Notes under the pieces: generated by a model
The model's input: only the letters and a program-made list of their open reading frames with translations
Told to the model about the DNA's origin: nothing
The model's database searches: none
Shown: in pieces, positions 4,983-6,436 of the stretch
Layout of the letters: each line of letters begins with the position of its first letter
Numbering within the stretch: the first letter of the stretch is position 1
Assembly: GCA_937995275.1 (NCBI GenBank)
Contig: CALKKN010000288.1
Coordinates: forward strand, 1 to 10,717
From: an uncultured Lysobacterales bacterium
GTDB lineage: Bacteria > Pseudomonadota > Gammaproteobacteria > Xanthomonadales > SZUA-36
Length of the DNA stretch: 10,717 bases
Direction: 5' to 3'
Translations under genes and position numbers: made by a program

Positions 4983-5058
4983 TGGCGCTCCCTACGAGAA
5001 TCGAACTCGTGTTTCCGCCTTGAGAGGGCGGCGTCCTGGACCGCTAGACGAAGGGAGC
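4983..5058 (-). tRNA. tRNA-Glu (anticodon CTC)
   Basis: The 76-base gene has an encoded CCA end (4983-4985). The acceptor stem is GCTCCCT paired with AGGGAGC, with discriminator G. The anticodon stem CCGCC/GGCGG carries the loop CTCTCAA, giving anticodon CTC (complement of 5022-5024), which reads GAG. The T stem is ACGAG/CTCGT with loop TTCGATT. The TTCGTCTAG D-arm start is typical of bacterial tRNA-Glu. I saw no convincing promoter upstream (5059-5158). The downstream gene is fdxA. Confidence 0.97.
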
Positions 5059-5105
5059 GTCCTGATTTGAGCGGCCATGCAAACCCACGACCGGCTGGCG
5101 GCTCA

Positions 5106-5114
5106 TGTTAAACT
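5106..5114 (+). promoter_or_regulatory. Candidate extended -10 promoter for pcnB operon
   Basis: TG-T-TAAACT (5106-5114) fits an extended -10 element in otherwise GC-rich sequence, with four of six -10 bases matching. No -35 box stands 16-18 bases upstream. Transcription would start near 5121, about 38 bases before the proposed ATC start of pcnB. Confidence 0.3.
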
Positions 5115-5158
5115 AGCCGCACCGCTACATTCAACCTGTCACCATAGCGTAAACCGCC

Positions 5159-6436
5159 ATCAACGAGTTTGTCACCATCCCCCAGGCCGAGCACCGGATC
5201 AGGCTGAAGGAGCTCTGTCCGCACGCCGCCGATGTCGTTCGTGAACTGCAGGACGCCGGCTTCGAGGCTTTTATCGTCGGCGGCAGTGTTCGCGACCTGT
5301 TGCTGGGCAAGGTGCCGAAGGATTTCGACGTTGCCACCAGCGCGACGCCGGAGCAGGTGCAGCAGGTTTTCCCCCGCTGCCGCCTGATCGGCCGGCGATT
5401 CCGCCTGGCTCATGTTCGCAAGCGCGGCAACCTGATCGAGGTGGCGACCTTTCGCGGCGTGCCCGATCCGGGCGATGAGCGCGAACTGGACAACGGCCGG
5501 ATCCTGCGTGACAACGTGTTCGGCACCGTGGAGGAAGACGCGCTGCGCCGGGACTTCACCATCAACGCGTTGTTTCTGGACCCGGTCAGCGGTGATATCC
5601 GCGATTACGTGGGCGGGTACCGGGACCTGGCCGAGAGGCGCCTGCGGCTGATCGGCGACCCCGCAGTCCGCTACCGCGAAGACCCGGTGCGCCTGCTGCG
5701 TGCGGCGCGCTTCGTGGCGAAGCTGGGGGTGGAGCCGGATGAGGAATCCGCCAATCCGATAACGGAACTGGCGCCGCTGCTGGAGCAGGTGCCCCCGGCC
5801 CGGCTGTTCGAAGAGGTCTGCAAGCTGTTCATGACCGGGCACGGCATGCGCAGCATGGAGGCCCTGCAGCGGTTCGGCCTGAGCAGGACACTGTTCCCCG
5901 GCCTGCGCCCGGGCACAGGATCCGGCAAGGTCCAGCTCGGCGGGGTCCTGCGCCAGTCGCTCCAGAACACCGACGAGCGGGTCCGGGTTTCCAAGCCGGT
6001 GACTCCTGCCTTCCTGTTCGCGGCCCTCTTGTGGGAGCCGGTGGAAGAGGTCGTGGGGGTGCTGGCGAGTGAGGGTGAATCGGAATACGTCGCCATGATG
6101 AAGGCCGCTGAGCAGGCGATTGCCGTCCAGGCCCAACGGACGTCCATCCCACGCCGCTTCAGTGCGGTAACGCGGCAGATCTGGATGCTGCAGGTGCGGT
6201 TCAGGAAGACGCGTGGCAAGCGCTGGAAACGCCTGCTTTACGAAGAACGGTTCCGGGCCGGCTACGATTTCCTGTTGCTGCGGGCCAGGGAGGACAAGGC
6301 CCTCGAGGAATTGGCGGAATTCTGGACCCGGGCGCAGGAAGGCCTGACGCTGCCGCCCGCGGGGGCGAGGTCGCGGCCGGAACGGCGCGACCGCCCACGC
6401 CGGCGCCGGCGCCGGCGGCCCCGGAAGACGGGCTGA
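5159..6436 (+). CDS. pcnB: Poly(A) polymerase I, with a proposed ATC start codon
   Basis: This enzyme adds 3' poly(A) tails to RNA and promotes RNA decay. From the proposed start the protein has 425 residues. In order: the N-terminal block TIPQAEHRI, corresponding to TVIPREQHAI of E. coli; the nucleotidyltransferase motif IVGGSVRDLLLG (39-50); the metal ligands Asp55 and Asp57 in KDFDVAT and Asp132 in RRDFTINALF; the RNA/nucleotide-binding part with RYREDPVRLLRAARF and PPARLFEEVCKLF; and an Arg-rich tail, partly encoded by three CGCCGG hexamers (6398-6415). The frame opens after TAA at 5150-5152. It has no ATG, GTG or TTG before the TTG at 5300, which would cut through the catalytic motif. 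ATC at 5159 is the first near-cognate start, and ATC at 5177 is the alternative. folK begins 12 bp after the stop. Confidence 0.9.
   Translation: MNEFVTIPQAEHRIRLKELCPHAADVVRELQDAGFEAFIVGGSVRDLLLGKVPKDFDVATSATPEQVQQVFPRCRLIGRRFRLAHVRKRGNLIEVATFRGVPDPGDERELDNGRILRDNVFGTVEEDALRRDFTINALFLDPVSGDIRDYVGGYRDLAERRLRLIGDPAVRYREDPVRLLRAARFVAKLGVEPDEESANPITELAPLLEQVPPARLFEEVCKLFMTGHGMRSMEALQRFGLSRTLFPGLRPGTGSGKVQLGGVLRQSLQNTDERVRVSKPVTPAFLFAALLWEPVEEVVGVLASEGESEYVAMMKAAEQAIAVQAQRTSIPRRFSAVTRQIWMLQVRFRKTRGKRWKRLLYEERFRAGYDFLLLRAREDKALEELAEFWTRAQEGLTLPPAGARSRPERRDRPRRRRRRRPRKTG

Follow-up and report, generated by a model that had tools for sequence, protein, structure and literature searches.

The 10,717-nucleotide stretch of DNA analysed here (the window) raises the question of where translation of its pcnB gene begins, as ORF reading leaves no canonical start codon in the pcnB frame from which a full catalytic domain could be made. 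The frame opens after the in-frame TAA at 5150..5152 on the forward strand and, as the initial annotation stated, contains no ATG, GTG or TTG until the TTG at 5300..5302. This codon lies 3' of the GGSVRD motif (5279..5296), which we take to be the catalytic motif, and leaves an ORF of 378 residues. The near-cognate codons listed in the same annotation, ATC at 5159, 5177 and 5198 and CTG at 5204, are present in this frame at those positions. Translation very probably starts at the ATC at 5159..5161, separated from the TAA by two codons (ACC GCC), and an AUH start of this kind appears to be conserved in the family. The gene would then occupy 5159..6436 of the forward strand, stop included, and encode 425 residues.

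The product is predicted to be poly(A) polymerase I by its TIGR01942 score and its alignment to E. coli PAP. Read from 5153 (P0001), it scores 462.3 bits against a cut-off of 305.65 and covers model positions 2-420 of 425. Residues 7-396 align with the E. coli PAP structures 3aqm and 3aql (8-396 with 3aqk), GGxVRD in the alignment to 3aqm being followed by PKDFDV just as it is in E. coli PAP, and CCA-enzyme models score far under their cut-offs. The C-terminus, encoded at 6380-6433, consists of a long stretch rich in arginine (RRDRPRRRRRRRPRK), and a basic C-terminal tail is also present in E. coli PcnB. The window derives from a MAG contig (assembly G000, 379 contigs, 77.9% complete) whose nearest named relatives are MAGs labelled Lysobacterales, Xanthomonadales, Chromatiales, Oceanospirillales or only Gammaproteobacteria.

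The -40 codon in the family

Codons were numbered backwards from the GG of GGSVRD, so that 5159 is the first base of codon -40, and ATH (AUH in RNA) denotes ATC, ATT or ATA. The pcnB gene was found in 36 of the 39 family genomes, and the 36 loci used were L002-L034, L037, L126 and L130, with L066 (the same as L126) and L070 (the same as L130) each counted once. Setting aside L007, which is cut at its 5' end, and the divergent genus g7 (L032-L034) left 32 loci, in which codon -40 is ATC in 17, ATT in 13, ATA in one, GCT in one and ATG in none, whereas the adjoining columns hold ATH in only 6/32 and 1/32 loci. A column of ATC or ATT in close relatives had been set beforehand as a test of the proposed ATC start, and such a column is seen here.

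The rule is not absolute. L017, the locus with GCT, has ATG one codon upstream (-41); in genus g7, ATA stands at -39 in L032 and L033 and neither codon is found in L034; and two database homologues, P0006 and P0010, have serine at -40 and a called start two codons upstream of it. Canonical codons are missing between the upstream stop and -28 in 21 of the 35 uncut family loci, and those in the other 14 are scattered from -32 to -108. They include ATG in four loci (L010, L017, L026 and L030), lying in L010, L026 and L030 in frame at unrelated places 72 to 204 nt 5' of the ATH codon. The database homologue P0017, which shares the N-terminus of L010, has its start assigned to an ATG 93 nt 5' of the ATH start; the N-terminal extension of P0017 is probably spurious, because this ATG precedes the conserved promoter-like element described below. 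In L037 (G005:C28:9558-10807), pcnB matches fall in two overlapping frames, reflecting a frameshift or an assembly error.

Outside the clade that contains the window, and with L017 omitted, all 23 family loci have SD-like pairing (-3 kcal/mol or better in the 18 bases before codon -40), in 13 of them with AGGA exactly 7 nt 5' of this codon. In L028 and L029 the upstream frame ends within the AGGA-ATT spacer itself, so that just one codon remains and no other start can fit.

The third base of the -40 codon has undergone at least nine changes on the family tree, none of them to G, although G is the commonest four-fold third base in the same genes (0.38; crude P 0.014 for never reaching G). This evidence is weakened because almost every third base is C or T and most of the changes are transitions. 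ATG as initiator would give the same protein, so drift should yield ATG, yet none of the 31 ATH loci has it.

Distribution in the order and class

Outside the family only strict counts of loci without a canonical codon were used, as lower bounds. A class-wide count by SD strength was rejected; at -4 kcal/mol it gave 27/124 'ATH only' loci against 11-26 for eight control codon triples. At the same threshold the count was 21/45 in the order of E. coli (controls 4-12) and 21/35 in the family (controls 4-13), and at -5.5 kcal/mol ATH stood out in the order of E. coli only (22/45 against 1-10, compared with 3/35 against 2-5 in the family and 21/124 against 5-19 in the class).

By the strict count, the rest of the order contains one locus in 23 without a canonical start upstream of -28 (L052), and the 44 loci of named genomes contain three (L081, L111 and L119, the last being a Lachnospiraceae protein merely 36% identical). 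One member of the order set, L041, was anchored on a false GG and has canonical codons regardless. The class sample comprised 140 genomes, 131 with a pcnB match and 130 without the window, and was reduced to 125 loci by the omission of G134 and G155, which begin too late in the gene, and of three loci that could not be placed by the motif. Fourteen of these 125 lack a canonical start, including one from the single-contig genome G132 (L183). By our reading, eight of the 14 look like ATT starts at -40 (L135, L162, L176, L183, L208, L212, L215 and L224) and L237, L246 and L250 have longer openings like that of E. coli; L237 was first anchored on a false GG and still lacks a canonical start upstream of -28, with ATT at -55 and -54. 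In L081 (Granulosicoccaceae sp. 1_MG-2023 strain I2M11) and L145, which share the same N-terminus, codon -40 is CTG and no canonical start is present.

ATH occupies -40 in 20 of 124 class loci. SD pairing before this codon has a median of -4.75 kcal/mol in these 20 against -2.2 kcal/mol in the other 104 (one-sided P 1e-4), and the codon is ATT in 16 of the 20, compared with 121 of 330 internal isoleucine codons (P 2e-4).

The order of G183 was taken as that of E. coli by sequence similarity. Matches were obtained in 52 of its 59 genomes and 50 loci were fetched, of which four lacked the motif, leaving 46 loci including E. coli after one duplicate was dropped. An opening like that of E. coli was found in 34 of the 46, with ATT in 24, ATC in five, other codons in five and ATG in none; openings were located by regular expression, the first match being taken, so that a few positions are wrong (for example L296). 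The other 12 have different N-termini, some with ATG (L297, L333, L337 and L339). Under the strict criterion only 3/47 loci of this order lack any canonical codon, because most of them, E. coli included, have an in-frame canonical codon around the opening.

On a FastTree phylogeny of 183 loci, built from a segment that begins 20 residues ahead of GG and extends no more than 160 beyond it, the absence of a canonical start (35 loci) required at least 23 changes and ATH at -40 (52 loci) at least 21, on a rough tree that does not recover the family as one group (L031-L034 fall apart). Frequent gain and loss, or frequent misjudgement of upstream codons, must therefore be assumed, and this scatter, together with the count of 1/23 in the order, speaks against one unbroken ancient feature.

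If pcnB of the window starts as proposed, the initiator tRNA would read the ATC at 5159-5161 as it reads AUU in E. coli. The third-base mismatch with the initiator anticodon would slow initiation and expose it to rejection by IF3, and slow or rejected initiation would keep the amount of poly(A) polymerase low, with the missing SD site weakening initiation further in the window clade. We regard the chances that the mismatch start is slow, rejectable by IF3 and keeps poly(A) polymerase low as roughly even. A broader proposal is that much of Gammaproteobacteria has long used AUH initiation of pcnB as a selected control, in two N-terminal architectures, one short and starting at -40 and the other long and like that of E. 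coli, with the window clade as an extreme case lacking an SD site. Poly(A) polymerase would then join infC as a second gene with an output set by IF3. This proposal is put forward tentatively and may fall short, its probability being lowered by the patchy count in the order and the scatter on the tree.

It is rather doubtful, although a possibility of real weight, that the AUH start is instead tolerated, PcnB being dispensable and weak starts drifting free of IF3 control. Such drift would agree with the variety of start codons (ATC, ATT, ATA and, in L145 and L081, CTG), with the ATG of some relatives and with the patchiness of the strict pattern outside the family, as counted above. It is harder to reconcile with the lack of ATG among 31 loci despite the third-base changes, with the SD sites kept in sister clades, and with the recurrence of the AUH start in the family, in the order of E. 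coli and in other families. The conservation of ATC, ATT or ATA in the family hints that evolution keeps the amount of poly(A) polymerase low. If AUH is kept while codon, position and SD vary, weakness itself may be the conserved trait, and RNA tailing would then be tied to the supply of initiation factors.

Position of the start within the frame

The window clade (L002-L006 and L008-L010, with L007 a member that is cut) has ATH at -40 in 8/8 loci and an SD-like site before it in 0/8, with a median pairing of 0 kcal/mol; in the window, the leader at 5115..5158 has no recognisable Shine-Dalgarno sequence (best anti-SD pairing 0.1 kcal/mol). The start of this clade consequently rests on homology and on codon pattern. 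Folding of the mRNA around the start is unremarkable (z 0.57).

Within the clade, the first two positions of codon -40 are identical in all pairs and the third differs in 61%. Codons -47 to -41 differ by 0.46-0.58 at all three positions and show no periodicity, and 3' of -40 there is a third-position excess that is weak in codons -39 to -35 and clear afterwards. The synonymous share in -39 to -35 is 0.23, low for coding sequence, compared with 0.03-0.04 upstream, and it reaches 0.61-0.80 in codons -27 to -1, a clear sign of constraint at the protein level. The same codon pattern is present in the g8 group (nine loci) and the g11 group (six), and across the three groups the third position of codon -40 differs in 56-61% of pairs. 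E. coli PcnB has arginine in the -40 column by hand count, so that isoleucine there is not a residue held in common with E. coli.

Initiation further downstream, at ATC 5177, ATC 5198 or CTG 5204, would give a shorter PcnB and is improbable. ATH is present at -34 and at -27 in 8/8 window-clade loci each (33/34 and 31/34 in the family set in which two loci are counted twice), and weak SD-like pairing precedes -27 in the clade (median -2.5 kcal/mol, no locus reaching -3). These isoleucines belong to the IPR..H.I motif of E. coli PcnB, which has isoleucine at both positions within IPREQH.I, and would thus be conserved as residues. The ATC at 5177..5179 is therefore rejected as a start, being an internal isoleucine of the shared motif IPREQH, and the ATC at 5198..5200 is not favoured, as coding periodicity is already present upstream of it, with the third-position excess seen in codons -39 to -28. 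Outside the clade, moreover, SD-like pairing precedes -34 in 1/22 loci and -27 in 6/20, compared with every locus at -40. An ATC start as the initial annotation proposed is supported, and among its candidates the SD position of the sister clades and the codon periodicity point to 5159.

The leader agrees with this position. In the 26 loci that have a conserved element, TGnTAAACT, within 160 nt, its distance to the ATH codon is spread over the three phases (11, 11 and 4 loci), as fits an untranslated leader. The distance measures 42-44 nt in the window clade, 69-79 nt in most other family loci and 119-120 nt in L011 and L037. In the window the element occupies 5106-5114, with TTCAACC 15 nt away at 5130-5136 (5106..5136 together, probably on the reverse strand), between pcnB and its divergent neighbour, the tRNA-Glu (CTC) gene at 4983..5058 of the reverse strand. 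Of 35 family leaders, 28 carry TGnTAAACT within 160 nt, against 0.019 expected per leader. Extending the range to 400 nt gives 31 loci with the element, 20 of which also have TTCAACC at a spacing of exactly 15 nt. The two are most likely the -10 and -35 of the divergent tRNA-Glu promoter, and TGnTAAACT could also be usable by pcnB as an extended -10. A role as the promoter of pcnB itself was considered and rejected, since TTCAACC at 15 nt is better explained by a promoter of the divergent tRNA-Glu gene. On neither strand did a sigma-70 pattern scan match a site.

A start at TTG 5300, with PcnB truncated or decaying, is very improbable, although this codon is the sole canonical start and is the one used in the database. 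The best match there (P0002) is a protein of 378 residues identical over 89% of the query, exactly the product that the initial annotation expected gene callers to give, and P0003 (99% identical, from a contig of another length) is truncated at the same place. Such a product would be without GGSVRD. Codons -27 to -1 are nevertheless constrained at the protein level, no stop interrupts the rest of the frame and the TIGR01942 match is well over its cut-off. Among the best 120 of 7,994 database homologues, 84 have a start called past -28 (79, with four more past GG, and P0080), three between -39 and -28, two at -40 and 31 further upstream, some of the short calls possibly reflecting contig ends. 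Isoleucine occupies -40 in 29 of these 31 longer calls, P0006 and P0010 being the other two, and the methionine at -40 in P0021 and P0024 may stand either for a genuine ATG or for an ATH codon annotated as the start. The gene thus shows a systematic annotation fault, in which starts are called too far downstream.

A sequencing or assembly error that hides an ATG, or a frameshift that joins the frame to an upstream start, named at the outset as a refuting case, would suit a MAG contig and is just as improbable as the TTG start, given the ATH codon in 31/32 family loci, the missing canonical starts in 21/35 family and 14/125 class loci (the single-contig G132 among them), the leaders of different length that end at the same ATH codon, and the in-frame ATG at 5105, whose frame is closed by TAG after two more codons.

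Comparison with infC and E. coli pcnB

Among the papers listed by searches of a collection with few subscription journals, none was found that deals with whether the pcnB start is conserved outside E. coli. The features that appear to be new, on the sequence comparisons made here, are an AUC, AUU or AUA start at a shifted position throughout the family, a subset of loci that lacks an SD site, and the repeated presence of such starts in further families of the class.

The infC gene is a different gene that shares the AUH start with pcnB of the window family. It begins at ATC in all 18 family loci fetched (L266, L267, L270, L272-L280, L282, L283, L286, L288, L289 and L292), with no canonical start in the sequence examined, which in L282 runs off the contig 23 codons upstream; in eight of the 18 the stop leaves just one or two codons before the ATC. 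The window genome has an infC fragment only, under the cut-off. From infC, AUC initiation looks like an established habit of the family, and classical IF3 autocontrol of infC is plausible there. Such autocontrol of an infC gene with an AUU start is described for E. coli in two papers (PMC9410913, PMC5559785). Because infC of the family also starts at ATC, the amounts of PcnB and IF3 would respond together to IF3 activity.

Non-canonical starts have also been mapped in S. aureus, at AUU in cvfC1 and AUA in ccpN, where AUH starts lower the protein yield of reporters and that of cvfC1 is said to be conserved in staphylococci (PMC13009471). These two genes have extended SD motifs, in contrast to the window clade, which has none.

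The closest known system is pcnB of E. coli, whose RefSeq start at ATT agrees with the AUU start given in the initial annotation and is preceded by GAGGT (-7.2 kcal/mol). Binns and Masters reportedly described this AUU start in 2002 (Mol Microbiol 44:1287). It is treated as already known in three papers (PMC9764084, PMC9410913, PMC4245954), one of which cites infC and pcnB as the sole E. coli genes with AUU starts (PMC9410913). According to another, PAP I is kept at low levels by AUU together with a poor ribosome-binding site (PMC9764084), a description with which the pairing energy of GAGGT sits oddly. Like its E. coli counterpart, pcnB of the window would start at AU followed by a base other than G, in the same gene. 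Unlike the ATT of E. coli, which lies at -65, the ATC of the window lies at -40, 25 codons nearer the catalytic motif, so the N-terminal extension of E. coli PcnB is absent from window PcnB; and whereas E. coli pcnB has GAGGT, the window clade is without an SD-like site.
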